NCBI RefSeq assembly: GCF_032118995.1 | Contig: NC_092666.1 | Location: forward strand, 12,102,501-12,166,500 | DNA: 64,000 nt | Reading direction: 5' to 3' | Origin: Asterias amurensis | Taxonomy: Eukaryota; Echinodermata; Asteroidea; Forcipulatida; Asteriidae | Shown: piece after piece, positions 3,799-35,640 of the stretch | Position numbering within the stretch: position 1 is the stretch's first letter | How the letters are laid out: each line of letters opens with the position of its first letter | Position numbers and translations under genes: made by a program | Notes under the pieces: generated by a model | What the model saw: the letters and a program-made list of their open reading frames with translations, nothing else | What the model was told of the DNA's origin: nothing | Databases searched by the model: none

Positions 3799-3804
3799 TT
3801 TATT
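3799..3804 (-). promoter_or_regulatory. Candidate polyadenylation signal of the secreted modular gene
   Basis: TTTATT on the plus strand reads AATAAA on the minus strand, about 310 bases downstream of the stop codon at 4112-4114. No other canonical hexamer was seen between them; an ATTAAA variant lies inside the R3 repeat near 3915. Confidence 0.3.
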
Positions 3805-4111: not shown

Positions 4112-4233
4112 TTAAGCTCCCATCTGTCGCTTCTTGAGGACATTCAACAGAGCCTTGGCTCGGAGAGCTTCCTTTCTTGGTCTCTTTGGCTGCATGTGTC
4201 CGTGCTTTGGCTCCTTGTGTTCAGCAGACTCAT
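4112..4233 (-). CDS. Exon 16: cationic C-terminal block and stop
   Basis: Encodes 39 residues starting DESAEHKEPKHGHMQPKRPR and ending LLNVLKKRQMGA before TAA at 4114-4112. Acceptor CTTTCCTCAG is strong. The KKRQMG ending matches the KKRQLG ending of the K exons, so the protein starts and ends with cationic modules. Confidence 0.7.
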
Positions 4234-7200
4234 CTGAGGAAAGAGAAAAACACTTTCAAATTTAATCTTGGGAAATGGGAAACGTTGACGGGGCCGTTGT
4301 CCTAGAGAAATTGGTCCACAGGAATTTCTGTCGTCCCCATGTGACAAAATTTACGTGGGGTAAGATGTTATAAAGATGGCACTATCAGAAGTGGTTTGCC
4401 GTACGGGGGGGGGAAGGGAAGCGCAGAATCTACGAATCTCCTTCCACACCGACCTCTAGAACTACATGGAAAAAAAATGTAATCCAGAGGGACCTCTCCA
4501 GACAACGCACTGGGTGGTCTGTTGAGGAGGCAGAAGTGTCAGCGCAAGATCGGTCTATTTGGAAGCTTCTCACCAGTCAGGCAGACGGTGCAGATATGCC
4601 TAATGCTAACTGATGATGCTGATGAATTTTGCAAGGGAACTTAACACTAACATGTACATTGTTCTTATTACAAGGAAGTTAACATGACACTTTGCTCTGT
4701 TGTTCGTCATATTTGTTATACTAACCTGAAGAATCAGAGCTTACGGAGTCGGAGCCAGAGCTGGAGCTGGAGCTGATTGATACTGTAAAAAAAAAAAATT
4801 CATTACAATGAAACTGATTCTGGATTTCATGGCCAGAGAGATTTGCGCGCGCAAAGTTAAAGGGTGAGTCCAACAGATCAATCGTTCATTGACGTCATAA
4901 GAAATTTATATTTAGACGCTTGCATAGGCCGCCATTGACACATGTAAGGGCGTGTACGCACAACACACAGCATTTAGCCAATGATGACTTTCTTTGACGT
5001 CAATGAGGGCGCTGTGTGAGTTTGTGCCGTCATTCAAGGGCATTTATTACTTCCATTGCACAAACGGTATTCGTAATACTAACCTGAAGAGTCGGAGCTT
5101 CCAGAGCTGGAGTAAGAGCTAGAGCTAGAGCTGACTGATACTGTAAAAAAAATATAAAGAAAATATCCTGCTCATTACAAGGAATTTGGTTATAGATTTC
5201 CTGGAGAGAGATTGATTTGCACACGCAAAGTTAGGGACACGTCCCAACCAGGGCCCAATTTCATAGCGCTGCTTAACGGTAAGCAAATTTACGTGCTTAC
5301 TGTAGCAGAAAAATTTGCTTAAGCCTTAGCGTATTTCACACGTGAGCAGAAAAATTGGGCGGCCATTATTGCGTGTTTACCGTGGATTTGCATTGTGACG
5401 TCATTTATTTTCGTGCGATAAGCACCGGAAGGTTAGCATGCCTTTTCGTGTGCTTACGGTTAGCAGCGCTATGAAATAGAAATTGCATAGTAAGCACAAA
5501 ATCGGCCGCTAAGCAGCGCTGTGAAATTGAGCCCTGATAGTTGGTGGTCAATCACGTCATAAACAATATTTAGACGCTTGCAAAGGCCGCCATCGGTGAT
5601 GATAAACAATGGACACGTGTAAGCGAGTACGCGCCACACACAACATTCATCCAATGATATTAGATCTTTCTAAGACGTCTACAGGGCGCTGTGTGAGTTT
5701 GTGCCGTCATTCAAGGGCATTATTTTACACTTCCATTGCACAAACGGTATTCGTAATACTAACCTGAAGAGTCGGAGCTTCCAGAGCTGGAGTAAGAGCT
5801 AGAGCTAGAGCTGACTGATTCTGTAAAATTAAAACAAAACAAAGAAACTTTGTTCTCATTACATGGAATTTGATTCTGGAGATTGATTTGCACGCGCAAA
5901 GTTAAAGGGACACGTCCCAACCAGATAGTTGGCGGTCAATTACGTCATAAGCAATCTATATTTAGACGCTTGTAAAGACAGCCATTGGTGATGATAAACA
6001 ATGGACACGTGTAAGCGAGTACGCGCCACACACAACATTCATCCAATGATGTTAGATCTTTCTAAGACGTCTACAGGGCGCTGTGTGAGTTTGTGCCGTC
6101 ATTCAAGGGCATTATTTTACACTTCCATTGCCCTAACGGTTTTCGTAATACTAACCTGAAGAGTCGGAGCTTCCAGAGCTGGAGTAAGAGCTAGAGCTGA
6201 CTGATTCTGTAAAATTAAAACAAAACAAAGAAACTTTGTTCTCATTACATGGAATTTGATTCTGGAGATTGATTTGCACGCGCAAAGTTAAAGGGACACG
6301 TCCCAACCAGATAGTTGGCGGTCAATTACGTCATAAGCAATTTATATTTAGACGCTTGCAAAGGCCGCCATTGGTGATGTTAAACAATGGAAACATGTAA
6401 GCGAGTACGCGCCACACACAACATTCATCCAATGATGATAGATCTTTCTTTGACGTCAAAGGCGCCGGAGCTGGTGAGTTTGTGACGTCATGTAAGGGAA
6501 TTTACAATTTCCGTTGCCCTAAAGGTATTCGTTATACTTACCTGAAGAATCAGAGCTGACTGAGTCGGAGAGTTCTGTGAACACAAAAAAAGAAATATAA
6601 TTATAATAATAACTGAGTCTGGATTTCCTAAAGATTACTTTAAAGATTGATTATTTCGAAGTTGCAAGAGGATTATGGAAGAAAAACCGCACTTGATGTA
6701 CAACTTTTGTGTGCTTTCAGATGCCTAAAAAAGGCTTCGGGCTTGAATTTATTATCTGGGTGAGAATTGATCTCTTTTTCAAAAAATACGTTACTTCAGA
6801 GGGAACCGTTCGCACAATGTTGTATACCATCAACAGCTCTCCGTTGCTCGTTACCAAGAATGTTGGTATGCTAACAAAATATTTTATTATTAACTACCGA
6901 AAGTGTAGAAATGTCTTTAGGGGATTTCTGGGTTTCAATGCGCACATGGAGAGATAAAAGGGGACGAGGGTACACCATGCCCATTATCGAGCACCACAAA
7001 TGTGGGGCTTGTCAAAACGTTTCGTCCATAAAAATATGGACACCTCGGCTTAATAGATCGAGTGGGCTTTTAGTCTCCTGCATTTCCCTCAAAACACGAA
7101 GTGAAAATACTGTTCTTGAACAGTTATTTACCAAACGTGTGCCTTTAAAGGATGTTGGTTCTTTTAGTAACACAAAACACAATGTCCACAGATACTACCG

Positions 7201-10200
7201 TTTGAAGATAATGATAGTAGCAAGCGTACCTTAAAATATGAGTTGCTATAGGGGGCGAGAAATGAGTAAAACAATGCCATGAAAATACGTTTTTAAACAT
7301 GCTAAAATAATTCTCGTCTCATGATCACTGAGACGAATTATTTCCATGACATCGTTTTACTCGCTCAAAAACTACATCACCTCAGCAAGTAATATTTTCA
7401 GGGAAGTTTTCTGCTATCATTGTGTTCAAACTGTGTTAGTTTAGTGTAAATCTGTAGACATTGTGTTAAATTTGTTTGTCCTACAAAAAGTACATTGCAC
7501 ATTTAACAAACCAAACCCCATATTGAAGTGTCTCAAATGACACGATACTTTTGTATGGATAGCATCGATCCTTTTAGTGTCATTACCTAGTTGCCTCTTC
7601 TTGTAAGCGTTCACCAGTTGACGTTTCATCGCCTTCATCTTCATTGCCTTCACGAGGGCCTTTGGTGGTCCTGCGGGTTTCTTCTCACCAGATTTGTCTT
7701 CTAAGAAATGGAAATCGTAACTGAGGATCAGGAATCTCTGAGAATCTTATTAATAATTCAGAGGATAGTATAGGAACATAAGGGATACTTGTGATACGAG
7801 AAGAAAATGATTTGTAAAAAGCTAAACTTTTTTTTTTTTTTTTTTTTTGGGGGGGGGGGGGAGGGGGGTGACTTGCCCTCTACAGCAAATCGGGCACGGT
7901 ATAATTGGTCAAGGACAAGTATTACTTTCTAGTTCGTGTAAAGCGCGTGCGCGACACACATCATTCAGCCAACAATAATTGATCTTCCTTATGATGCCAG
8001 TGAGGGCGCTGGCTGAGCTGTGACGTCATACAAGGGAATTATACATCACTATTGCTCTAACGGTATTCGTAATACTAACCTTCAGATTCGGATTCAGATT
8101 CGGAGCTTGCGGAGTAGGAGCCAGAGCTAGAGCTTGAGCTGACTGATGAACGAAAAAAAAAAAAAAAATGTTTTCATTACAATGAAACGGTTTGTGAGTT
8201 TCCTGAAGAGAGAGATGTTTGCCCAAGCAAAGTTAAACTTCCCGACCAGGAGTGCGTTTTGGCGACCCCAACCAAAAACTGTTTCTGACGTCATACCCAA
8301 AAACGGTAACCGAACTCACAACTCGGTTATCGTTCAGTCTGAACAGCAGAACCAACGACCAACAACCGAAACAGTTTTGGTTGGGGTCGCCAAAAGGCAC
8401 TCCTGACAAATGTCTTGCGGTCAATAATTACGTCAATCTATATGTATAAGCTTGTAATGACCGCCGTACGCCTTTCTTGATATTTATGCATGAGGTACGT
8501 CACAATGCTAATCAAAAACGATGCGATGGATGGGCGAAGCTGGCCGGCCACTGCAAGTAATAGACCTTATGCACATAACGTCATTTCAGTAGGGCAATAA
8601 CGCAATACTGTGCGCCGCGCGTACAAATCTGTGCGTCTCGATTGTTTCGTCACCGTTTTTCCTCGAAGATGGCGACTGGATGACGTCACTGCATAAGGTC
8701 TATTCCTAGCCAAAATGAGGCTATGGTCGCACGTTCCCCCATCACTTGCAGTGGCTGCGCCCATCGCCTCGTTTTGAGTTAGCATTGTGACGTACCTCAT
8801 GCATAAATATTAAGAGAGGCGTATGGGGGACGTGCGCGCCCATAGCCTCATTTTTGGGTATGAATTATGACGTCATGCATACATAATAAGAGAGGCGTAT
8901 TGCTGAGGTTACGCAATGGAGGCGTATAATAAGCACATACGCGCGCACCACACACACATCATTCATCCAATGATGATCAAGCTTCCTTTGATGTCGCTGG
9001 GGGCGCTGAGTGGGCTTGTGACGTCATTTAAGGGAGTTAACATATCACTATGCGCTGTAGTTCGTCATACTAACCTGATGAAGAACCAGAACTTCCGGAG
9101 TCGGAGCCAGGGCTTTCTTCTTCTGTGAACACGAAACATTGAAAAAATAGTTCTCATTACACTTAAACTGATTATGAATTTCAAGGAGAGAGATTTGCAC
9201 GCACGCGCAAAGCTTAAGGGACACGTCCCAAACCGATGTGCACTTTTATTACTTACCTAGTTGCCTCTTCTTGTAAGCGTTTACCAGTTGACGTTTCAGC
9301 GCCTTCATCTTCATTGCCTTCACGAGCGCCTTTGGTGGTGCTGGTCTCTCTTCACCAGATTTGTCTTCTAAAAAAATCAACATCGTAACTGAGAATTAGG
9401 AATCTCTGAAAATAATTATTACCAATTATTCAGATGATTAGGGCCTATTAAGGGGTACTTCTGATACAGGAAGAATTGGTTCTGTAAAGTAGTAGTTAAA
9501 CATTTCATTTTTTCGGGGAGGAACACCCCCCTATGCCACATATCGGGAGCGGTTCATTCGATTTAGTTGAAGGACTAGCTACTTTCTCTTTCGTGTAAAC
9601 GCGTACGTCATACTCAAAATTCATCCAATGGGTGCATTCGTTTAGCTTCCCTGGGTCGACCCCGATGTGGCGTATTTTATTTTTTTTCCAGGACTGTGTG
9701 CCTACGTACGTGGGGCACAATTACCCAACGTTCGTCCCGGAAAAATCGCCTATTTCGTTTTTTTCAGGTGGAGCGAGGGTAAACATCTGCACACGTTCGT
9801 CCTGGAAAACGAAATAGGCGATTTTTCCAGGACGAACGTTGGGTAATTGTGCTAGTTGAGCTTCTGACGTCATGCACGGGAAATTGTTTTAACGGTATTT
9901 GTCATACTAACCTTCAGAGTCGGAGCTTACGGAGCCGGAGCTCACGGAGTCGGAGCTTGCGGAGCCGGAGCTCACGGAGTCGGAGCTGATGGAGTCGGAG
10001 ACAGAGGAGCTATCTGTTTATGTGAGCACAAAACAAAGAAACCGTGTTTTCATTACATTGAACTGATTCTGTGTTTCCTCCAGAAAGACTTGTAAACGCA
10101 AAGCCAAGGGACACGTCCCACCCAGTGCTAATTTTGTGCATTTGGGATAAATTTGCGAATCATGCTTATACTGATGGATGATACTGAATGTTGACAAAAT

Positions 10201-13200
10201 AGATGACGTTTCAACGCCGTCATCACTGTATTCATGGGCGCCTTTGGTGGGGCTGTTTTTTTTTTACTTCTTAGGAATCGTAATTGGGAATCAGGAATCT
10301 CTGAGAACTATTAACAAAATTATTTAGAGGACTTTAGGATTTCTGACACAAGAAGAAAATGATTTATTTAAAAGTATTTAAACCTTTTTTTTTTTTGGGG
10401 GGGGGCACACTCTCTGCCACTTATCGGGCCCGGTGTATTCAATTAAACTCACCTTCTTCTTCCCTTTTTGATTCGGACTCAGACGATAATGTCAAGTCGC
10501 TTGATGACCAGGACTCGGGCCACTCAAACTCACTCAGCTTCCCCCATGATTCAGGCCACTCGGAGCTAGACCAGGATTCCGGCCATTCGAACGTGAAGGA
10601 CGATGATGCATCGGAGCCAGAGTCGGAAGCTGTACATTTATTTTGTATAGGAAATAATTTAAGGTATTTATTTATTTATTTATTTATTTTTATTTTAAAT
10701 CTTTAGACATACACAATAGTTACAAGTTGTACAGGGGCTGTCAAGGTTAAAACAAAAGTATAAAACTGTCATCAAAAGGTGTGTAAAACCATGTGTTGTA
10801 GACTGAGTTAAAGAGTTTGGATATCTTTTGTAATACGCCCTCAGATTTAAATTGAATTTAAATATAATTGGTAATAAAAACGTTCGGTAAGAAGCCTACA
10901 GCAGTTTTCGATTGAGTATAATGTGAACTTGTTCTTACCTAGCTGCCTCTTCTTGTGAGCGTTCACCAGTTGACGTTTCAGCGCCTTCATCTTCATTGCC
11001 TTCACGAGCTCCTTCGGTGGTGCCGGTTTCTTTTCACCTGATTTGTGTTACAAGAAATGAACATCGTTACTGAGAATCAGGAAGTTCTTGGAATTATTGG
11101 AAATTATTCAGAGTATTTTATAAATGGTGTATTTCGGATACAACGTCTTTTTTTGGTGTGTTAACTTTTTTCGGGGAGGGAGGGGGCACCCCTCTGTCAC
11201 ATATCAGGCCCGGTGTAATCAATTAGTTAGTCAATGACTATTTGCTTTCTCTTTCACCCTCACTTTGTGATTCGGACTCACCCAATACGGTTGGATTGAC
11301 TCACCTTTTCCCGCGGACTTTTTCATTTCGTTCCATTCCGATGATGTCCATACGCTTGGACCCCAGGAATCTTTCCATTCAAACTCGCTCAGATCCCACG
11401 ACTCGGGCCACTGGAAATCCGACCAATCAAACGAAGACCAGTCGGACTTCCCCCAAGAATCTTTCCACTCAAACTCGCTCAGATCCCACGACTCGGGCCA
11501 CTGGAAATCAGACCAATCAAACGAAGACCAGTCGGACTTCCCCCAAGAATCTTTCCATTCAAACTCGCTCAGATCCCACGACTCGGGCCACTGGAAATCA
11601 GACCAATCAAACGAAGACCAGTCGGACCAGTTGAAACTGTAAGAAGTGCTAGAATCTGACGGGGAGTCAGAGCCAGAGCTCGCCACGGGGCTAGGGTTTG
11701 ATGAGTCTGAGTCTGAGCTTGCTTCGTTTTCAATCTGCCGACGCTGCAGCAGAGCTTTCTTTGCGGACGCTTTCAATCCTGCGACCTTCTTGGCTACTGT
11801 TGGAGCAAAGACACAATACACAAATGCAATTTAAAAACACATTGCGCGTAAATCTGTAAAGGCGTTGTACTTTAATCTGATATAAAACCGTTCAAAGGTT
11901 CCGGTGTCAGATGCAAATGTGTCCGCCACGCTATGCTGTCCGCTCCGGACACTTTTGTATATGCAATCGTGTCCGGGGCTATGCAAAAACCGTCCAGCGG
12001 ACATGTACATGACTGTACATGTATATGCGCGCGTAAGCGAGCGTGCATGCACTGAACCTACGTAATGCAACATGAATATTCACGTGTTTTATTATTGCAG
12101 CGAATACCCAACGGCCAAACATTTCTCATGTCATTCATGACATGCACTTATAGCTTGTGAAAAAAATGGCGAACGTGTTCCGTCGACCAAGGCCGTTTAA
12201 TTTACTGCAAGGACGGTTTTGCACGGGGGCAGACACAATTGCATCATGCAGCAGCGTCCGGGTGGACACGATTGCATATGCAAAACCGTCCGGCGGACAT
12301 TATTGCATATGCAATAATGTCCTCCGGATACTATTGCATGGAGGACATAATTGCACGCGACACCGGTCAAGGTGAAACAGAGGGAAGTCTCAATGATAGG
12401 GAAAGCAAGTGTGAACAGGTGTGTCTTTAGTTGCAGCTAACAAGGGGGATGTTTTCCCTGAGGTGTTCTCATGAAGCGTTGACGCACTGATGATACAACT
12501 GGTGGGCAAACTGAGGGTTCATCGTGCATTTTTGTATGGGCTGATGGTGTCCTGGGTGGATTTCACAAAGAGTTAAGACTAGTCTTATCTCGAGTAGACG
12601 AGTTAAGACTCAGTCCTAACTCTTTGTGAAATCGACCCCTTGACCCCCAAATTAAAAAAACCTGCACAAAATTGTCTCCGGACCTCCACAACAGTCAATT
12701 ATTTTTGGAGTGAGGTACAAATCGAAAAAGAGTTGTTGGAAGGTGCCACATGTTTCCTTTCCTTCGCCGTTTCGGGGGTACGTTGTTTATACCCGGGTCA
12801 CACTTAGGCCCTTTTCGAAGTGACGGATTCGGCTCAGGCTTACTTGGCCCCGCCGGTTGTTTTGGCAATTCCGCGTGCTTTGCGTTCGAGCTTCAGACGA
12901 GAGGACGGAGCCTCCAGCCAAATCCAAAGCCAACGACGTAGTTTCAAAAAGGGCAATAAACGCCGCTTCTACTAATAACGATGAAAAAGTGGTCGAGGAG
13001 CGTGGTGATGAGCCAAACGATAGACTTGATTCAAGTCCCGTTCTCGTGTGAGAGGTCCCAAGGCATATCACGTCAACTACTATAGCAAACTGTCCGTATA
13101 GCAAGGCGCGCTCGCCGTCATAAGGTTGGGGATCGGAGTATCACAAAACATCAGTTTTCTGGCGATGGCATGGGATTGGGATTCGAGTCAAGTCTAGCCA

Positions 13201-16200
13201 AACGTTGGAGGGATTCCATGAGCGTGGTTAGGTCAGGGTTGGATCTCTTAATCGGGAAGCTGCATTATATTTCAGTTTTGGGGATAAAAACTTATGTCTC
13301 TTTCCATAACCACGTATCTTTACTCCGAAAACAAATGATTCTACTGTACTTACTTATATTATAACCAAATAAATTTTTATTGTCATTAATTTTACGAATA
13401 ACTGCCAACGAACATTTTACATTTAAAGGAACATTTGAAGGAACATTACGGAATGGGTTTTTGCTAACAAACAGTTGCTGTAAACGTTTGAGATCTGGAT
13501 CACGAGGAAAAAAGTGACACAACGATTACACATTTTTGCATGATATCGATTATACATAATCAAACGCTCACTGGGCGCTAAACTCCACAACGGGAAAATA
13601 GTTTTATTTATTTATTTCTCATCTAGTATGACATTTCAGACAGTAGACGTTTTCTACTATCATCATCATTAGTAAATCTGTTTTCTTAGATGATTGGTTT
13701 TCTTTTACCAATTCTGTAATGTTCGGGGTTTTTTCTCTCTCCTTTTTATTTATTTTTCATTTTTTTTGCTTACCCAATGCGGCCTTCAGTGCTTTGAGTT
13801 CAGGGCGGCGGGCGGCCTGTTGGTTTAAAGAAAAACAAGTTATTGGTTATGTTTATTAATTGGTTTTTACCCATACACCGATGTGTGTTAGCACTGTATA
13901 CTCAGTACTTTCCTGAGTCCTGTGTAAAAAATATCACAGGCATGTTACTCGGGTGGGATTCGAACCCACGACCCTTGCAATTCTAGAGCAGTGTCTTAAA
14001 GGAAGACGTTGCCTTGGATCGGACGAGTTGGTCTTTGAAAAGCATTTGAAACAGTTTGTTATGAAATGTATATGGTTAGAAAGATATTTTAAAAGTAGAA
14101 TATAATGATCCACACAAGTATCACTCAAAATTGCACGGTTTTCATTTTACGTCGCGAACTAACACGGTCGGCCACTTATGGAAGTCAAAGTTTTGATTCC
14201 CATAAATGGCCGACCGTGTTTGTCGACGAGGTTAAACGAAAACCACGCAATTTCGAGGCATATTAATTTGTTTAGATCATTGTATTCTACTTTTACAACA
14301 TCTTTCTAACCATATCGATTTTATAACAAACGGTTACATGACGCTTTTCAAAGACCAACTCGACCGATCCAAGGCAACGTGTTCCTTTAACAACTAGACT
14401 ACCGTTGAGCTCGTTTCCATGGTCAATATTCCAGCTGTATACATAACTTAACAATTACAAATTATAAGGCGCTATTCTATCAAGTTCATAGCGCACTTGA
14501 TTAAAACATGAATAAAGGTGTGTCTTATAAGAACCTAACGAAATGAGAAAAAGTAACAGATTCCCTGTTATTTATATAGACACGGTAATTGTCAAAGACC
14601 AGCATCTTTATTGGTATGTCCCCAAACATGCACAAAATCAATTAAACCAATCTGTGAAAATTTTGACTGAAAATGGTAATCGAAGTTGAGATTAACGACA
14701 AAAAAAAAAAAACACCTAAAAGGTCTTCAGACCTGAACTAAGTCGAGTGAGAAATTACTTTTTTTTTTAGTAATTACCGGGAGTGTCCATTGCTTTTAAA
14801 GCCATTGGGCCCTTTCGGTTCAGAAAAAAAATAAAAGTTCACAGATTTACAAATAACTTACAGGGTTTACAGAAGGCAATGGTGAAAGACTTCTCTTGAA
14901 ATATTATCCCATGAAATGCTTTACTTTTTGAGAAAACAGCAAAACAATATAAATTAGGGATTTATTTTAAACACATGTCATGACACGGCGAAACGCGCGG
15001 AAACAAGGGTGGGGTTTCCGTTGTTTTCTCCCGACTCCGATGACCGATTGAGCCTAAATTTTCACAGGTTTGTTATTTGATATAGAAGTTGTGGTACACA
15101 AAGTGTGGGCCTTTGACAACACTGTTTACCGAAAGGGTCCAATGGCTTTAAGTTTATATACTTGTACATGTAGGCTACACGTGTACACATAATAGTTATT
15201 CTGCTCAAGCCAGACTCCTACTATTGTGGATGGTGCCCATGACTACATTTACGGACAGTGAATGTAACACTGCTTCAGACCCAGGAGTTTTTCATGTTAT
15301 TCCATTTATTAATTTCACAGGTAAAACTGCAAGTACGGACAATAGAAACGGTAAAGAAAACAAATAAATGTACATACAATTAGGTGGGAGAACCCCCCCC
15401 CCCAAAAAAAAAAAAAAAAAAAAAGAAAAGAAAGTAAAACCAAAAAATAGCACCCATGATGGATTTCTGAAAAGTAAACTAAATTACTACCGAATTAACC
15501 TCCTGATACCACCATTTGAGAAGAGACATTATAAAAGGACATTAGATGGACAATATTGAATCATGGCTCATAGGGCCTACAGTAAAAAAATATAGAACTA
15601 TAATACAATCAATTCAAACTGTACACAAAATGGGCATTGACAAAATAAATACAAATTCGGTAAAAAAGAGATTCTGGTAACTTACAAAGTAAAATGCACT
15701 ACAAAAATTGAGAATAAGAACAAGCTACAAGGCATTTGAATGGGTATGGCAACTTGAAAGGAGAAGTGGCACTGTGCCCATCGACGGTTCATGATCAAAT
15801 CAGTGTAGCCCTCACCTCGAAATAGCCGTTCGGCCTTGTATTACGATAAGCGTTGCCCAGCAAGGCTCTTTACGCACGCACCAGCCCGCTCTGACTTCAC
15901 GAAATGCATAGATATACTATACCGCACGGCACATAACAGTACTTGATACCACGGGGTCGAAGCATGACTTTTCGAGGTATCAACGAGGTTACAAACAAGG
16001 TACTCATGGCGCTGAGTATTATTATTATACAAACTTTCAGAAAGATAGGTTGTAGTATTGCAGTCATGATTTCTGATACCCAATTATTTAGCACATTATT
16101 TAAAGGGTTTACAATGTGCTACACGGCGCATATAGCAGTCACAGCCATGAATACCGGGGCAAACCCTTTCTCTTTTCGAAAAGTACACAGGGTTCTTTTA

Positions 16201-16553
16201 CACGGGCTACACAACACATGGGACCAACGGCTTTACGTCCCATCCGAAGGACGAAATATCTGTGCATTTTTTATCAATATTTGTCCTTGTAATGCTACAT
16301 TATTCAGCAGTCGTGCTGCCAGGTTTTTATTTTTATTTTTTATAAATGAATGAATGAATGAATGAATTAAGAGATGAATGAATGAGTTAGGGTGTTTCAT
16401 TACATGGCGTTACCGCAAACTTCCACCATGCGAAGTTTCAAACACTTTCCAAAGAAATATATATAATATTGAAATAAGACTAACCGGTTTGCCTTGAGCC
16501 TCAAGCGAGACAGCAAGTAGAACTATACACACAGCGATCAGAAGACGAGCCAT
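4112..16553 (-). CDS. Secreted modular polyampholyte protein, 16 exons, family not recognised
   Basis: Coding exons in transcript order: 16553-16485, 13816-13774, 11796-11305, 11037-10939, 10629-10453, 10013-9912, 9367-9257, 9122-9075, 8142-8080, 7700-7587, 6574-6542, 6206-6156, 5820-5764, 5140-5084, 4782-4726, 4233-4112. All junctions are GT-AG and the frame is open throughout (1695 nt, 564 residues). Residues 1-20 are a signal peptide (MARLLIAVCIVLLAVSLEA, cleavage near Ala19), so the product enters the secretory pathway. The rest alternates lysine-rich helical blocks with Ser/Asp/Glu-rich and Trp-rich blocks. There is one Cys, in the signal peptide, so no disulfides. Every exon from the third onward begins in phase 1, and all but the last also end in phase 1, so modules can be added or lost in frame. 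Function unknown: a structural/adhesive phosphoprotein, a biomineral matrix protein and a multi-peptide precursor are all possible. Exon choice is by eye; some modules may be alternatively spliced. Confidence 0.72.
4726..4782 (-). CDS. Exon 15: Ser-rich block
   Basis: VSISSSSSSGSDSVSSDSSG, 57 nt, phase 1-1, acceptor TTTTACAG, donor GTTAGT. Older than its neighbours by sequence divergence. Confidence 0.62.
5084..5140 (-). CDS. Exon 14: Ser-rich block of the tandem array
   Basis: VSVSSSSSSYSSSGSSDSSG, 57 nt, phase 1-1. Identical to exon 13 except for the first base after the acceptor. The 680-bp distance to exon 13 equals one array unit plus the R2 insertion at 5248-5537. Confidence 0.65.
5248..5537. 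mobile_element. Family R2 foldback inserted into the exon array
   Basis: Begins AGGGCCCAATTTCATAGCGC and ends GCGCTGTGAAATTGAGCCCT, complementary ends, with GCTTAAGC/GTGCTTACGG stem motifs. It is present in only one unit of the tandem array, so it inserted after that unit was duplicated. Confidence 0.75.
5764..5820 (-). CDS. Exon 13: Ser-rich block of the tandem array
   Basis: ESVSSSSSSYSSSGSSDSSG, 57 nt, phase 1-1, acceptor TTTTACAG, donor GTTAGT. Spacing to the next copy is 392 bp. Confidence 0.65.
6156..6206 (-). CDS. Exon 12: Ser-rich block of the tandem array
   Basis: ESVSSSSYSSSGSSDSSG, 51 nt, phase 1-1. It differs from exons 13 and 14 only by loss of one Ser-Ser unit (6 nt). Exon plus flanking intron is a near-identical tandem copy of the neighbouring unit. 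Confidence 0.65.
6542..6574 (-). CDS. Exon 11: very short Ser/Asp block
   Basis: Eleven residues, ELSDSVSSDSSG; 33 nt, phase 1-1, acceptor TGTTCACAG, donor GTAAGT. The smallest exon of the array and the most diverged of the S-type repeats. Confidence 0.55.
6640..6870 (-). mobile_element. Family R1 fragment
   Basis: Carries the R1 internal phrases GTGTGCTTTCAGATGCC, CGTTACTTCAGAGGGAACCG and GCTCGTTACCAAG in reverse orientation. Both ends are lost. Confidence 0.6.
7137..7510. mobile_element. Foldback element family R7
   Basis: Starts TTTAAAGGATGTTGGT and has a large central palindrome (ATGAGTAAAACAATGCCATGAAAA against CATGACATCGTTTTACTC). A second copy is 61005-61365, also bordered by TTTAAAG; a fragment is at 51905-52005. 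Confidence 0.65.
7587..7700 (-). CDS. Exon 10: lysine-rich block K3
   Basis: EDKSGEKKPAGPPKALVKAM, then KMKAMKRQLVNAYKKRQLG. Acceptor CTTAG, donor GTAATG (weaker than consensus). Phase 1-1. Together with K1 and K2 it defines a conserved cationic module of 33-38 residues with a Lys-Met-Lys centre and a Lys-Arg-Gln-Leu-Gly end. Confidence 0.68.
7826..7868 (+). repeat. Poly-T/poly-G junction tract
   Basis: About 20 T then about 13 G with an A interruption. Similar T-to-G junctions precede related DNA at 9508, 10382 and 11160, each followed by a copy of GCCACATATCGGGCCCGGT. They are part of the duplicated intron cassette of the modular gene. Confidence 0.7.
8080..8142 (-). CDS. Exon 9: Ser/Glu-rich block
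   Basis: VSSSSSSGSYSASSESESES ending EG. The acceptor (TTCATCAG) is moved 6 nt relative to sister exons, which keeps the frame. Long poly-A (plus strand) lies just upstream on the plus strand at 8152-8167. Phase 1-1. Confidence 0.62.
8249..8404. mobile_element. Foldback element in intron 9-10 region
   Basis: Inverted arms of about 35 bp: GAGTGCGTTTTGGCGACCCC ... and GGGGTCGCCAAAAGGCACTC. Centre holds a small palindrome AACCGAACTCACAACTCGGTT. Single copy in the window. Confidence 0.65.
8484..8816. mobile_element. Nested foldback elements
   Basis: Outer arms: ATTTATGCATGAGGTACGTC near 8490 and its complement near 8795. Inner element: AATAGACCTTATGCA at 8560 against TGCATAAGGTCTATT at 8690. 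The inner foldback therefore sits inside the outer one. Confidence 0.65.
9075..9122 (-). CDS. Exon 8: Ser/Gly-rich block
   Basis: Sixteen residues, EEESPGSDSGSSGSSSG, acceptor TGTTCACAG, donor GTTAGT, phase 1-1. Flanked by the same CACGCGCAAAGTTAAGGGACACGTCC and GACGTCATTTAAGGG intron motifs as the other S exons. Confidence 0.62.
9257..9367 (-). CDS. Exon 7: lysine-rich block K2
   Basis: EDKSGEERPAPPKALVKAMK, then MKALKRQLVNAYKKRQLG. Acceptor TTTTTTTAG, donor GTAAGT, phase 1-1. Nearly identical to the K3 exon (7587-7700), with the same KKRQLG ending directly at the exon border. Confidence 0.7.
9716..9862. mobile_element. Foldback element
   Basis: Nearly perfect arms of about 47 bp, beginning GCACAATTACCCAACGTTCG and ending CGAACGTTGGGTAATTGTGC, around a 50-bp spacer. 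A fragment of the GGGTGCGTTCG element family lies just left, at 9628-9665. Confidence 0.7.
9912..10013 (-). CDS. Exon 6: Ser/Asp-rich block
   Basis: Encodes a nearly pure Ser/Asp/Val/Gly block (SDSVSSGSASSDSVSSGS and repeats). At DNA level it is a GAGCTCCGACTCCGTGAGC-type micro-repeat. SSDS/SDSE contexts are typical acidic-kinase phosphorylation sites (inference). Phase 1-1; donor GTTAGT. Confidence 0.65.
10201..10275 (-). pseudogene. Decayed copy of a lysine-rich exon
   Basis: Plus-strand text GATGACGTTTCAACGCC ... GGCGCCTTTGGTGG aligns by eye with the K exons (GTTGACGTTTCAGCGCC ... GGCGCCTTTGGTGG) but carries substitutions and small length changes, and neither splice site is kept. It occupies the place where a K exon would be expected between the acidic exons at 10453 and 10013, so a module was probably lost here. 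Confidence 0.6.
10453..10629 (-). CDS. Exon 5: Trp-rich acidic block
   Basis: Fifty-nine residues with four WPES- or EWPESW-type motifs (for example FEWPESWSSSEWPESWGKL) flanked by Ser/Asp and Ser/Glu runs, ending KREEEG. Related to the Trp repeats of exon 3 but not in a strict tandem. Phase 1 on both sides, acceptor TGTACAG, donor GTGAGT. Confidence 0.7.
10939..11037 (-). CDS. Exon 4: lysine-rich block K1 with shifted acceptor
   Basis: Encodes GEKKPAPPKELVKAMKMKAL followed by KRQLVNAHKKRQLG. The paralogous exons at 9257-9367 and 7587-7700 begin at TTAG|AAGAC; here that AG has become GT, so the expected acceptor is gone. An AG 13 nt further in (CAAATCAG|GTGAAAAG) keeps phase 1 and the frame, so I start the exon there. 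Its pyrimidine tract is poor, so the exon may be skipped. Confidence 0.55.
11305..11796 (-). CDS. Exon 3: cationic block, Ser/Asp linker and three Trp-rich 30-residue repeats
   Basis: The longest exon (492 nt, residues 38-201). Order: basic helix VAKKVAGLKASAKKALLQRR; an acidic Ser/Asp/Pro linker; then a 30-residue unit repeated three times over 11365-11634 at a strict 90-nt period. Each unit has 6 Trp, in phrases DWSSFDWSDFQW, PESWDLSEFEW and KDSWGKS. It ends with a variant unit and a basic tail KKSAGKG. The three repeats are almost identical in DNA, so the array is recent or homogenised. Confidence 0.75.
11880..12370. repeat. Cluster of GTCCGG / ATTGCATATGCAAT palindromes
   Basis: About 490 bp in intron 2 of the modular gene contain many variants of two motifs, GTCCGSNGGACA and TTGCATATGCAA. 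A 28-bp perfect palindrome is at 12295-12322 (GGACATTATTGCAT plus its complement). Could be collapsed foldbacks or a regulatory cluster. Confidence 0.55.
12554..12640. mobile_element. Foldback element family R3, short copy
   Basis: Palindromic, GATTTCACAAAGAGTTAAGA at the left and TCTTTGTGAAATCGACCCC at the right. Confidence 0.7.
12641..13773. other. Intron 2 remainder, nothing assigned
   Basis: Contains a more GC-rich patch (12780-13130) with long open frames on both strands but no recognisable domain and no supporting splice context. I see no gene here. Confidence 0.4.
13774..13816 (-). CDS. Exon 2: short cationic block K0
   Basis: Fourteen codons plus one base, AARRPELKALKAALG, between acceptor CCAACAG and donor GTAAGC. 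Basic and Ala/Leu-rich, predicted amphipathic helix. It is the bridge between the signal peptide and the large exon 3. Confidence 0.65.
13860..14000 (-). mobile_element. SINE-C, tRNA-derived head, reverse
   Basis: Reverse of a tRNA-like head with B box GGTTCGAATCCC (seen as GGGATTCGAACC at 13956-13967) followed by CACTGCTCTAGAATTGCAAG, and a body ending in ACACCGATGTGTGTTAGCAC. Other copies: 41575-41762, 45296-45475, 51685-51905 and 52578-52740. Confidence 0.7.
13996..14398. mobile_element. Foldback element family R4, full copy with TTAA flanks
   Basis: Starts TTAAAGGAAGACGTTGCC and ends GGCAACGTGTTCCTTTAA. Long symmetrical arms meet at ACACGGTCGGCCA / TGGCCGACCGTGT. Relatives at 21625-21898 and 33815-34168. 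TTAA borders both ends. Confidence 0.8.
14796..15151 (+). mobile_element. Foldback element family R5
   Basis: Full-length relative of the element at the window start, in intron 1 of the modular gene. Starts TTAAAGCCATTGGGCC, ends GGGTCCAATGGCTTTAA. Confidence 0.8.
15152..16080. other. Intron 1 unassigned DNA
   Basis: A/T-rich, with a C-run then A-run at 15395-15424. No gene or repeat family recognised. Confidence 0.4.
16081..16345 (-). mobile_element. SINE-B body, reverse, truncated
   Basis: Reverse of the body also seen at 54045-54440: GGGACCAACGGCTTTACGTC, CTTTCTCTTTTCGAAAAG and GGTTCTTTTACACG match in reverse. The tRNA head is missing. A (TGAA)n run follows at 16346-16370. Confidence 0.6.
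16485..16553 (-). CDS. Exon 1: signal peptide of the modular gene
   Basis: Start ATG at 16553-16551. Exactly 23 codons, phase 0 end, donor GTTAGT. A basic Arg at position 3 is followed by a hydrophobic stretch of about 14 residues (LLIAVCIVLLAVSL) and a polar cleavage region EAQGKP. The upstream DNA has TTTAAA-type A/T runs at 16604-16620 that could be a weak TATA element. Confidence 0.75.
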
Positions 16554-21624: not shown

Positions 21625-21898
21625 TTAAAGGAACACTGTGCGAACTAACACGGTCGGCCATTAATTTTATGGGAGTCAAAAATCTGACTCCCATAAATGG
21701 CCGACCGTGTTAGTCGACGAGGTAAAAGGAAAACCGTGCAATTTCGAGGCATGTTTGTGTGGATCATTGTATTCTACTTTTACAACATCTTTCTATATAG
21801 CCATTTATGCATTTTATAAAAAAAAAAAACGGTTACAGACGCTTTTCAAAGACCAACTCGACCGATCCAAGGCAACGTGTTCCTTTAAGAGTTGTGAT
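21625..21898. mobile_element. Foldback element family R4, half-length
   Basis: TTAA-flanked. Left arm is shortened to the TAACACGGTCGGCC palindrome; right arm complete to GGCAACGTGTTCCTTTAA. Confidence 0.75.
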
Positions 21899-22318
21899 TT
21901 TTTGTGAATGTGTGTGTACTGCGTTTCACTCTTTTGTCGCAATAGACTTGTCGACAAGTCGTTGTGTCTGTCACGGTCCACAAGTCTATTGTCCAAGTAG
22001 TAGTATGTTTTCCTCTTTCACTCGCGTGAAGTTTGAACGAACTTCATCGAGTGAAAGAGCCCGTATTTCACCCTAAAAAGAGTTGTCCGTCATAATGGTC
22101 ACATTTGCAAGTGGTGGTAGACGGAAATTAATGAGGTTTTTCGTATGTGCCCCTAACATTTACCATAATCACATAACAGGAATTTAATTAATAAGAACTT
22201 AATAATTATCCAAAACCAAACCTTCCGGTTTCAAATTGTGGGCATCCATTCGAGCGTTGGATTCATTTGCAAATTCCTATCCAAACCAGTTATTAATGAG
22301 TAGGATTTGAAACTTTGC

Positions 22319-22498
22319 ATGGTGGAAATACGATATAGAAAGGTTTGCGGTAACACCATGTAATGGCTCTCTCTAATAAGTTGGGTGGTTCTGAAAAGAA
22401 CGGGGTGGTTCTGAAAGAAAAACGGTTCTTTTCAGAACCACCCCAACTCACCAGAGAGAGTCATTACATGGTGTTACCGCGAACCTTTCTATATACAG
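22319..22498. mobile_element. Long perfect foldback element R6
   Basis: Arms of about 75 bp: AGAAAGGTTTGCGGTAACACC ... at the left and GGTGTTACCGCGAACCTTTCT at the right, with GGTGGTTCTGAAAAGAAC near the turn. Fragments at about 16395-16450 (CATTACATGGCGTTACCGC) and about 56260. Confidence 0.7.
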
Positions 22499-23229
22499 TT
22501 ATTAATGGTTGCTGGGTGTTTACTTTCAAGTTTCTTTGAATTTTACTAACATCACTCTTGAAAAGGCACCTGCTTATGGGCGGGATGGGTTGTAATGATT
22601 CCCATGGCAAGTTTTCGAAACGGTTGCCCGGCTGGGTCTACAGGCTATAGCACTGTTTGTCAGTCACTCATCCTCATGAAGAACACACAGGCAAATGCAA
22701 GTCCTTTGACAAACAAACACACACCCTGTTGATGGACAGAAACACCAAAGGTCTACTTTTGACACCTCAATTTTCTGCGAAGTCATCAGAACGATTGATT
22801 TATCGAGTGGCATTACTCTGTTCGGATTAATAAAGTAACGATGGCATAGGTTAAAATAATTTTTTTTTCATGATTTCTTGAGTGTGTCATAAAATAAAAT
22901 AAAAAGTATAGATTTTTTGAAACAAAATGCCAGGAGAATATTTGTTGTCACCTTTAGGTTGCGTGCGCCTTAAGGTAGTCGGCGACTGGTAAACTGCATG
23001 GAAAAGTTCGACTCTCTTAAGAAATTAATTTGTCTGACTCTTTTTTTCTTCTTTTTTTTTTTTTTTTTTGGGGGGGGGGCGTCTTACTACTGTCTTTTTA
23101 GTGGAGCGAGGAGAGAGATAGTGGGGGCGGGGGTGGGGGTGATGGCAGCAGTTACTCGGCCTTTAAAACAGAATAAACAGTTAAACAAAAAACAGAAGAA
23201 TAATGTCATCACCTTAAAGTTGCATTCAC
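22499..23229. other. Unassigned intergenic DNA
   Basis: Contains a poly-T then poly-G run at 23040-23079. No gene seen. Confidence 0.4.
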
Positions 23230-24253: not shown

Positions 24254-24985
24254 AAACTAAACTCCACAGCGGTTCGGCCCATCGGAGAATACCCGAGCGA
24301 GAATGACCTTATGACGTCATTTTGCATATGCTTGCATCTTTTAGACATGAACATATTAACAACCAGGTCCTAGTGGTTAGTCCACTCTTATGTAACAACT
24401 CCCCAAACCTGCTGCTACAGATGTACTTGAATAAAGAGGTCTGAAGCAGTGCTTGTATCTTTTAAACATGAAAATATAAACAACCAGGTCCCAGTGGTTA
24501 GTCCACTCGTATGTAACAACTCCCCAAACCTGCTGCTACAAATGTACTTTAATATAGAGGTCTGAAGCAGTACTGGTCTTTTAGACATGAAAATATTAAC
24601 AACCAGGTCCTAGTGGTTAGTCCACTCTTATGTAACAACTCCCCAAACCTGCTGCTACAAATGTACTTGAATAAAGAGGTCTGAAGCAGTACTGATCTTT
24701 TAGACATGAAAATATTAACAACCAGGTCCTAGTGGTTAGTCCACTCTTATGTAACAACTCCCCAAACCTGCTGCTACAAATGTACTTGAATAAAGAGGTC
24801 TGAAGCAGTGCTTGCATCTTTTAAACATGAAAACATAAACAACCAGGTCCCAGATGGTTAGTCCACTCTTATGTAACAACTCCCCAAACCTGCTGCGTGG
24901 GGGATCGTCGCGAACCGTGCCGAGAGCACACGAAAAGTTCCAACCGCTGTAGAGGTTAGTTTTTTGTGCCTTCCCAAAAGGAAGC
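24254..24985. repeat. Five-copy 119-bp tandem array inside inverted arms
   Basis: Five direct copies of a roughly 119-bp unit from about 24332 to 24898; each has AACAACCAGGTCCTAGTGG, GTAACAACTCCCCAAACCTG and AATAAAGAGGTCTGAAGCAG. Outside the array are inverted arms: AAGGAAGGCACTAAACTAAA at 24256 and its diverged complement (GGTTAGTTTTTTGTGCCTTCC) at 24954. The whole may be one non-autonomous transposon with an internal satellite. Confidence 0.75.
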
Positions 24986-32271: not shown

Positions 32272-34432
32272 TCACAGTTTTGAAGCGGCCATGCATTTTT
32301 GTTCTCCCGGGTAGAATTTTAGTTGACATTGGGCGACTAAGAGATCTTCTATTTTGACCTCAACCCAAATGACATGTTGGATAATTCCATCCGCCCAACA
32401 GCTCACTGTAACCTCCTGCCCAGCATCTGCCTCTTTAATATATCGGATCCACACCTCTTCTGCTTTCCCGTCAAAACTAGCCCCTGCTGGAAACCCGGTC
32501 AAAAGTCCATCTTCAACGGCCATAGTGCAACAGTCCAAACAATAGCGTATGACTACAGCCTGGTTGAGGTGCAGGTTTAAGTCTGTATCACCAGACATAA
32601 CAGTCCTCTTGTGTGTGAAGTAAACAGCAGGTCGCTCTGGAAACTGTGGACCAGACACTGGTCTCTTTTCCCGGGATAGGATAACGGTCGCGAGGTCTCG
32701 TACTTCAGATGAAATCGCGGTCGGTCTGCGTGTCGTTTTTGAAACCCTCACTGAGTGAGTACTGGATGAAGCTAGAAGCTCATTGGTCAAGACATCTACG
32801 ATGTTCGTATCGGTACACAATGAGGTCTTGCCAATGTGGCTGACACGGAGGTTGATTTTAATGGACCGACCTCGCTTTAATACAGTGTAGAAGGCTGGGT
32901 AAATCTTGAACCAGTTTGAACGAAAGAAGAACACAGACGGGTTGTGCTCCTGAGACGGCAAACCTTTGATGTACAAGCCCATCGAGACACGAGCTCCTTC
33001 AACTAACTTGGACAGCTTCCATATGCTAACTTTGCCTGGATGTAAAATCAATGGGTAATAAAATTAATTAGTAAACCTTCAAAACACTGCAAATCTTCCC
33101 TTTCAGAGCTTTAATTTATTTTCTACGGAAGTATAGTTAGGACATACCGACAAAAAAATGTGGCTCCACTATTCCGCCAGGGCGGATTACCAAAACAAAT
33201 ATAAACACATACCAACAGACATCCTCATTTCACTGTTAATCCACCCGGGCGGATTTCTGTTCTGCCCGGGAGGCCCCCGGTGGATTACTATTCCCCCTAG
33301 GCGGAATAGTGGAGCTTGATTTTAAATTTTCGGTACGTCCTATTACACTGCCGTACTTTTCTCCTTACCCCTACAAAACTGTACAATTGTGGTGGAACAG
33401 CTCTTAAAAGGTGTTCATCTGTGTTGCTGCTGACATTGAACATGTAATAATTGCTGTGTCTTTTGTGGTTTGTTTGATTGTAATAAAAGGCAATTAAGCT
33501 GCTGTAACTACTGAAAAGAAACAACTTGTCAAGGAAAAGGAATAAAACTTTTATGAGAAAAATTTGAAGCACTCGCTTTAATTGTATTATAATTAAATAA
33601 TGTTTTTGAAGGTTGAAGTGTGTACATTGATCTAGACCCAATTACTTACGGGGGTGGTGTACTCCTTATTTTCAATTTGACATAAATAAAAAAAAAGGAG
33701 TACAGCGCGCTGCAGCGCCCCAGAAGTTGGTACCTGGGTCTTACAGTCACATTCATTTGGGTGTGTTTTTTAGTGAGTGTTGCGTTCGCATTGGACTTCT
33801 CGTCCCTGTTAAGTTTAAGGAACCCGTTGCCTTAGTTCAGACGAGTTAATCATTCTGTGAAAAGTGTTTATTAGAAAGATATTTTAAAAGTAGAATATAA
33901 TGATTCACACAAGTATCACTCGAAATTGCGTGGTTTTCTTTTTACCTCGTCAACTAACACTGTCAGCGATTTATGGGTGTCAAAAAATAATGGCAGACTG
34001 TGTTAGTTCGCAAAGTAAAAGGAAGACCGTGCAATTTTGAGGCAAATTTGTGTGGATCATTGTATTCTACTTTAAAACATCTTTCTAACCATATGCATTT
34101 TATAACAAACGGTTACAAACACTTTTCAAAGACCAACTCGACCAATCCAAGGCAACGTGTTCCTTTAACTTTGTTAAGTTACCGTGGCTCAAATCTGCCT
34201 GTTAAGTACACAGCGCCATGGCGGTAATTTACCGGCTGTTCGCACTTATTATGGGTTAACAATTTGAGGTGGTAAGTTAACCATTTTAAGTCGAATGCGA
34301 AAACGGCTTTAGCATCCGGCAAACACTTACCCCACTTGTCAAAATCTCCGTATGAAAGCCCCTCAATGACATAGTGAAGCACCCCATCTTCTCCATATTC
34401 GCACCTCATGGTGTCATGCAAACTCAAATTAG
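32272..34432 (-). CDS. Double hot-dog-fold thioesterase-like protein
   Basis: Exons 34432-34331 and 33035-32272; the split Gly codon (G|GC) joins exactly, donor GTAAGT, acceptor ACATCCAG. From the ATG at 34409-34407 the protein has 280 residues; the exon is in frame upstream of that ATG, so the true N-terminus may be longer. Two hot-dog halves are visible: YGDFDKWGKVSIWKLSKLVE at residues 20-39, followed by the AR of a typical long helix, and SGDTDLNLHLNQAVVIRYCL at about 174-193. Both resemble the D-x-D-x-x-x-H/G-x-x-N signature of 4HBT and acyl-ACP thioesterases, where the helix follows the substrate-binding Asp/Asn. The half-to-half layout is that of a fused acyl-thioesterase; substrate is unknown. 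Convergent with ABHD10, itself a thioesterase, but I see no functional link. Confidence 0.72.
33139..33345. mobile_element. Foldback element in the hot-dog gene intron
   Basis: Arms AGGACATACCGACAAAAAAA with CTCCACTATTCCGCC at the left and GGCGGAATAGTGGAG with TTTTCGGTACGTCCT at the right. The interior repeats CCGGGCGGA / CCGCC motifs. Confidence 0.65.
33815..34168. mobile_element. Foldback element family R4
   Basis: TTAA-flanked; AAGGAACCCGTTGCC at the left and GGCAACGTGTTCCTTTAA at the right, central AACTAACACTGTCAGCGATT arm. Confidence 0.75.
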
Positions 34433-34663: not shown

Positions 34664-35640
34664 CAGTGGGGCTACTTTGTCAGGGCAGGGGTGACTTTGT
34701 CAGGGGGTTACTCTGTAAGGGGGTGACTTTGTCTGGGGGACTTTGTCAGGGGGCAACTTTGTCAGGGCGGGGGGCGACTTTGTCAGGGGGCAACTTTGTC
34801 AGGGCAGGGGGCGACTTTGTCATCAGGGAGTGACTTTGTCAGGGGGCAACTTTGTCAGGGGGTGTATTTGTCAGGGCAGAGGGCGACTTTGTCAGGGGGT
34901 GACTTTGTCAGGGCAGGGGGGCGACTTTGTCAGGGGGGTGACTTTGTCAGGGCAGGGGGGCGACTTTGTTAGGGGTTGACTTTGTCAGGGCAGGGGGGTG
35001 ACTTTGTCAGGGGGTGACTTTGTCAGGGGGTGACTTTGTCAGGGGGTGACTTTGTCAGGGCAGGGGGGTTGCTTTGTCAGGGCAGGGGGGCGTATTTGTC
35101 AGGGGGTGACTTTGTCAGGGCAGGGCAGGGCAGGGGGTGACTTTGTCAGGGGGACTTTGTCAGGGGAGGGATGACTTTGCTAGTAGTAGTAGTAGCCTAG
35201 GTTCGGGGCGACATTGGGATGACTTTGTCTAGTCTATGGGCGACATTGTCAGGACAGGGGGCAATTTTGTCAGGGCAAGGGTTGACTTTGGTAGTAAAGT
35301 AGCCTAGGGGCGACATTGTTTGGGATGACTCTGTGTATGTCTGTGTGTGACTCTGTCAGGGGGCGACTTTGTCAGGGCAGCGGGTGACTTGGGATCCGGT
35401 GACTTTGTCAGGGGGTGACCTTGTCAGGGGGCGACTTTAGTATCCTGGGCGACATGACTGTCTGGGATGACTTTGTCTAGTCTGTGGGCAACATTGTCAG
35501 GTCAGAGGGCGACTTTGTCGGGCGCAGGGGGTGACTTTTGTCTGGTATGACTTTGTGAGGGATGTGGGCAACTTTGCTAGTTAGTGCAGTGTATGAGTAC
35601 ATCATGACATGATACACTTATAGTTTATACAGCCTTGCCC
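34664..35640 (+). repeat. GTGACTTTGTCAGGG minisatellite, about 1 kb
   Basis: Dozens of variants of (G)GGGTGACTTTGTCAGGG(CA), unit about 18-30 bp, strongly G-biased on the plus strand, becoming degenerate toward 35640. A lone unit (GGTCAGGGGCGACTTTGTTGG) lies at 37792. The open frames through it are a product of the repeat and not a gene. The G3+ runs could form quadruplexes. Confidence 0.9.

Follow-up and report, generated by a model that had tools for sequence, protein, structure and literature searches.

A candidate orphan gene of the sea star Asterias amurensis for a probably secreted, cysteine-free protein built of charge blocks

The DNA analyzed here is a stretch of 64,000 nucleotides from the sea star Asterias amurensis (RefSeq assembly GCF_032118995.1, contig NC_092666.1, positions 12,102,501 to 12,166,500 of the forward strand), referred to below as the window and numbered from its first letter. 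Its minus strand carries a 16-exon gene model, 16553..4112, whose two ends are a start codon and a stop codon and whose exons join into a single open frame of 564 residues, ATG to TAA. An initial annotation, made from the letters alone, had proposed these coordinates and this number of exons, and both are borne out by the start and stop codons, by the GT-AG borders of every intron, and by the open frame. We read it as a real sea star gene, predicted to encode a secreted, Cys-free charge-block repeat protein for which the searches described below gave no relative. The exons (E1 to E16, in reading order) and the features lying among or just beyond them are as follows.

16485..16553, minus: E1, start codon and signal-peptide-like segment (MARLLIAVCIVLLAVSLEAQGKP); donor GTTAGT; ends in phase 0
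13774..13816, minus: E2, short basic exon (AARRPELKALKAAL), net charge +3, phase 0 to 1
11305..11796, minus: E3, opening basic (VAKKVAGLKASAKKALLQRR), continuing with a Ser/Asp stretch and then an acidic, Trp-rich block that contains three 30-residue repeats; 21 Trp, net -17
11361..11627, minus: tandem repeats within E3, three 90-bp units, 97% matches
10939..11037, minus: E4, Lys module, net +9
10453..10629, minus: E5, acidic Ser/Trp-rich block with WPESW repeats; 6 Trp, net -12
10190..10267, minus: decayed copy of the Lys module, outside the chain; frame-breaking length changes in alignment, no listed donor scoring above 0
9912..10013, minus: E6, Ser/Asp module with internal 15-bp repeats, net -6
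9257..9367, minus: E7, Lys module, net +7
9075..9122, minus: E8, acidic Ser-rich module, net -4
8080..8142, minus: E9, Ser/Glu module, net -4
7587..7700, minus: E10, Lys module, net +9
6542..6574, minus: E11, Ser/Asp module, net -3
6156..6206, minus: E12, Ser-rich module, net -2
5764..5820, minus: E13, Ser-rich module, net -2
5536..6557, minus: 386-bp tandem duplication, about 2.6 copies, 91% matches; carries E12 and E13 with introns and covers 16 of the 33 bases of E11
5084..5140, minus: E14, Ser-rich module, net -1
4726..4782, minus: E15, Ser-rich module, net -2
4112..4233, minus: E16, basic terminal exon ending LLNVLKKRQMGA-stop, net +6
3928, minus: ATTAAA, between the stop and the possible poly(A) signal; pattern match only
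3799..3804, minus: possible poly(A) signal AATAAA, about 310 bases past the stop; pattern match only

When E3-E15 are joined, the frame used contains no stops in 486 codons, as against 30 in 487 and 32 in 486 for the other frames of the same strand and 18, 28, and 11 for the reverse frames. All 13 of these exons are in phase 1-1, with lengths that are multiples of three, although this uniformity is partly by construction because some borders were picked with the frame known. Splice sites were placed by a simple scan, a relaxed listing of sites, and the reading of homologous exons; at its thresholds, the simple exon scan recovered 6 of the 13 phase 1-1 exons, and the remainder were placed by hand.

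Comparison of the DNA with itself reveals two families of cassettes, whose members have introns as well as exons in common. The Lys cassette comprises E4, E7, E10, and the decayed copy; the Ser cassette comprises E6, E8, E9, and E11-E15. A distant relative of the Lys module is found in E16 (shuffle P 0.0095 with E4, 0/2000 with E7, and 0.001 with E10). The combination of E2 and the basic start of E3 was considered as a further copy and rejected, as neither the Lys modules nor E16 show detectable kinship to it (P 0.20-0.40). The order of the exons (Lys-Trp/Ser, decayed Lys-Ser, Lys-Ser-Ser, and Lys followed by five Ser) suggests that an older Lys-Ser unit was repeated. Part of the array is very recent, since the 120-base flanks of E12 and E13 are 100% and 97% identical. 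No matches overlapping the exons occur elsewhere in the window at E 1e-6. Two pieces of intron (6656-6906 and 7143-7498) recur many times window-wide on both strands and are probably dispersed repeats.

The presence of multiple copies allows exons to be weighed against their own flanks. Pairs drawn from E4, E7, and E10 are identical at 91/99, 91/99, and 93/100 positions (91, 90, and 93 if aligned jointly with the decayed copy), as against 66%, 62%, and 77% for their homologous upstream flanks (P for the exon excess 2.5e-6, 1.3e-7, and 0.0012). Downstream flanks are 49-60% identical and make an unfair control because matching DNA ends about 5 bases beyond the exon. Within the exons, dN/dS is 0.25, 0.18, and 0.18, figures that come from 32 codons (one E10 codon dropped) in which each pair differs by no more than 4-4.5 synonymous changes and 3-4 others. 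The exon part of the decayed copy is 67-68% identical to the intact Lys exons, and its upstream flanks are 61%, 73%, and 78% identical to those of E4, E7, and E10 (P 0.40, 0.45, and 0.09); with both flanks pooled, the exon part exceeds the flanks in the comparison with E4 (P 0.006) but not in those with E7 and E10. Because exon identity exceeds flank identity, dN/dS is about 0.2, and the decayed copy is no better kept than its upstream flank, the Lys module is, as judged from these comparisons among copies, a coding exon under constraint.

The initial annotation had also called the protein unrecognised, and no relative emerged from two homology searches, Pfam, or the PDB, within their scope. 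The 564-residue chain, scored over residues 1-290, found none at E 0.1 among the best 8000 candidates by common words (lengths about 310-987), and the first 235 residues found none at E 1 among 1145 candidates (lengths about 129-411); these searches could miss relatives beyond such lengths or resembling single modules only. No Pfam domain reaches its cut-off in the chain, the sole match, FERM_M, being taken as chance at 17.7 bits (cut-off 23.8), and the first 254 of the 564 residues have no PDB match at E 1. No such protein is described in the literature listings searched, a scope that excluded supplements and most subscription papers. A control open reading frame at 32272-33063 (minus) gave three matches among 443 candidates: A. 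amurensis at 100% (97% of length), Acanthaster planci at 45%, and Patiria miniata at 48%. Sea star proteins are therefore present in the database searched, and given the lack of a match despite their presence, the charge-block gene may be unannotated, or annotated at an uncovered length or split. The control frame itself is 4HBT/thioesterase-like (Pfam 4HBT_2, below cut-off), and its A. amurensis match is an uncharacterised protein.

The lack of a matching protein is one of the points that could favor a non-functional origin, in which the exons would be chance open frames in repeated DNA: no annotated protein was matched even though the database includes another A. amurensis protein encoded in this window, one Lys copy has decayed, and some exon borders were chosen by eye. 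Such an origin has to contend with the stop-free frame beside the 30 and 32 stops of its neighbors, and with the low dN/dS of the Lys modules and their exon-limited conservation, which the decayed copy lacks; we regard it as very improbable.

The predicted chain opens with a segment that is signal-peptide-like by eye, has no Cys past residue 20, and is probably secreted. From residue 21 onward it counts 544 residues, with 30% Ser, 27 Trp, 68 Lys/Arg, and 86 Asp/Glu. Opposite charges are segregated beyond what composition would give: net charge in 30-residue windows has a variance of 23.3, versus 8.1 (sd 2.1, max 16.3) in 500 shuffles, none of which was as high (z 7.3). Together with the signal-peptide-like start and the cassettes, this segregation supports the earlier description of a block polyampholyte made of exon modules, with secretion probable. 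The accompanying claim that opposite charges occupy discrete exons applies to the exons generally and fails for E3, a mixed-charge exon in which a basic start is followed by an acidic Ser/Trp remainder. All 27 Trp lie in E3 (21) and E5 (6), both net acidic, and 20 of the 26 intervals between them are 4 or 5 residues long. Among Ser-containing patterns, S-x-S is high (86 versus 49.1 in shuffles), which we attribute to Ser runs; S-x-x-D/E is found 25 times versus 26.0 (sd 3.9) in shuffles.

The basic blocks carry a recurrent motif of their own, a basic pair followed by Gln and then Leu, Ile, or Met (KR-Q[LM] or RR-QI), at 8 sites among 17 basic runs. Five mark the C-terminal ends of basic blocks (the E3 start, E4, E7, E10, and E16), and one more lies inside each of E4, E7, and E10, so placed that QLVNAY or QLVNAH stands between KR and KKR in the three Lys modules. 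On the C side KKR-Q is kept in E4, E7, and E10, whereas the N side varies (EKK in E4 and E10, EER in E7).

Such sites might be expected in an antimicrobial-peptide polyprotein, one of two parallels drawn in the initial annotation, in which the Lys modules would be excised as cationic peptides and the acidic Ser/Trp blocks would neutralise them until release. Several near-identical modules of +7 to +9 with acidic blocks between them would suit this scheme, as would the motif at the ends of five basic blocks, and one cut each could free the N-terminal and C-terminal basic segments. There is also a resemblance in outline to echinoderm precursors: sea urchin centrocin and strongylocin precursors have a signal peptide and cationic parts with an anionic propeptide (PMC4805251, PMC10608444), the propeptides being described as brief anionic segments by which the mature peptide is neutralised (PMC10608444). 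Those precursors are, however, 89-121 residues long in Echinus esculentus, with Cys-containing mature peptides and bromo-Trp in the cationic peptide, whereas the sea star protein is 564 residues long, lacks Cys beyond the signal peptide, and confines its Trp to acidic exons. Moreover, none of six basic segments is more amphipathic than its shuffles (hydrophobic moment, P 0.61-0.78, on one scale at one test angle), N-side basic pairs are not conserved among the internal modules, and all three Lys modules have an internal KR. The parallel is weakened by these findings, and we think it unlikely to apply.

A peptide-hormone-like precursor would make other use of the same sites, with cutting at K/R-R before Gln yielding fragments that start with pyroglutamate, such as QLVNAY. 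The 8 sites and the hexapeptide flanked by KR and KKR in three modules are what such a precursor might show. Yet 6 of the 8 descend from one cassette and are thus not independent, the hexapeptide has no Gly amidation site directly following, and most of the protein is Ser, Trp, Asp, and Glu, with no evident use for such a peptide. The chances of this being the function appear very slight.

The other parallel drawn earlier was with charge-blocked adhesive or biomineral matrix proteins carrying phospho-Ser. In a skeletal matrix protein, acidic Ser/Asp/Glu blocks would bind calcium or calcite while Lys blocks tied chains together. Mineral-matrix proteins tend to be disordered, secreted, repetitive, and of low complexity, with frequent duplication, and several repeats rich in Ser and acidic residues are known from a skeletal protein of a brittle star (PMC4336488). 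Phosphodontin, a phosphoprotein of sea urchin teeth, is likewise a secreted, repetitive, acidic Ser-containing echinoderm protein, with a signal sequence and a series of 35 short EISSGEGEQPK-type repeats (PMC2830187). Phosphodontin differs in having an Asp-rich C-terminus and a pI of 3.9, and its excerpted description includes neither Lys modules nor Trp repeats (PMC2830187). The sea star protein has no such Asp-rich tail, its acidic share is modest (Asp/Glu exceed Lys/Arg by 86 to 68), no Pfam domain reaches cut-off and hence no C-type lectin domain, its Trp content would go unexplained by mineral binding, and S-x-E shows no enrichment. A mineral role would agree with how mineral proteins are described in general, with no specific feature in its support, and we rate it as improbable; the phospho-Ser component of the parallel is weakened by the S-x-E count (given below).

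A better fit is, we infer, a cohesive matrix or granule role: a self-associating charge-block protein that is secreted or stored in granules, a proposal whose truth we judge evenly balanced against its failure. After secretion or within granules, Lys/Arg blocks would pair with Asp/Glu/(possibly phospho-)Ser blocks and Trp through salt bridges and cation-pi contacts, both within and between chains. The protein would then condense into a cohesive coacervate or gel, which could serve as matrix, granule-packing, or adhesive material, and the length of the acidic tail would be set by the count of Ser modules. Secretion, self-association, and role belong to the conditional part of this account, which builds on the open 16-exon frame, the duplication of Lys and Ser cassettes, constraint on the Lys module, charge segregation, and the confinement of Trp to acidic blocks.

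Precedent comes from sandcastle worm cement and related complex-coacervate adhesives, which are also secreted and for which condensation of oppositely charged polyelectrolyte proteins in granules has been proposed (PMC4275877). As compared by description, the worm places its charges on separate acidic and basic proteins, while here one chain carries both as exon-coded blocks, with Trp in the acidic part. Caddisfly H-fibroin offers a second likeness in its alternating repeats with serial (pSX)n Ser motifs, where X is Arg or an aliphatic residue and calcium forms the cross-links (PMC4929942). Again by description, that protein exceeds 300 kDa and contains phosphoserine, in contrast to the 564 residues, Lys modules, and Trp-rich blocks seen here.

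Several observations weigh against the matrix or granule account or the gene model beneath it. With the scoring matrix used, a number of splice sites score low (e.g., the acceptors of E4, E5, and E6); because of these scores and the frame-aware choice of borders, boundaries of individual small exons may differ from those listed. The signs of constraint on the Ser exons are divided: of 21 pairs (E6 left out), 12 have an exon identity higher than that of both flanks and 9 do not, and the excess over both flanks passes 5 points in 7 pairs, 6 of them with E15, the exon whose pairs are clearest (4/6 at P <0.05 against the upstream flank alone). In 5-residue windows the charge pattern stands out less (z 3.8, with at least 1 of 500 shuffles higher), and the S-x-E motif, a Golgi kinase context, occurs 12 times versus 14.5 (sd 3.1) in shuffles. 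Finally, the footprint proteins Sfp1-15 of Asterias rubens, of the same genus, resemble the charge-block protein in that many have a signal peptide, some are repetitive, and Sfp4b is Ser/Gly-rich, but the large majority carry conserved functional domains, AC1-only members have a high Cys content, and no charge-block Lys/Trp protein is described in the excerpts (PMC9382459). Exceptions are Sfp12 and Sfp14, which are known in part and have no annotated domain (PMC9382459); the charge-block protein may be identical with one of these, which were compared by description only.

A more specific and distinctly tentative version of the self-association proposal would be a secreted polyampholyte, confined to a sea star lineage, that coacervates as a single chain, with exon-coded Lys blocks set against Ser/Asp/Glu blocks and regularly spaced Trp blocks. 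Its tail would be tuned by the very recent duplication of Ser cassettes and so would probably vary between individuals.

Other features lie elsewhere in the window. On the plus strand, two open reading frames at 42539-42955 and 44417-44743 possibly belong to one TPR-protein gene; the second is a clear TPR match, and the first has no Pfam match and is TPR-like by eye. An Rfam match to the histone 3' stem-loop lies at 22419-22464 (plus; 35.4 bits, cut-off 34), with no histone-like frame seen by eye among those listed at 21700-22500. A tRNA-Ser (AGA) at 51781-51850 (minus) was called by ARAGORN with an overlapping Rfam tRNA match, and Rfam gives another tRNA match at 41599-41670 (plus) that ARAGORN did not call. 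Long tandem arrays occupy 34688-35519 (units of about 14-92 bp), 24329-24896 (119 or 240 bp), and 57841-58288 (111 bp).

We take the orphan gene to be real and unusual; what it does is still conjecture, and annotation may have missed it. If expressed, it would hold both partners of a complex coacervate in one gene, a compact natural example built from two exon cassettes whose duplication history is readable. The gene would thereby offer a direct test of how exon duplication gives rise to charge-block structural proteins.

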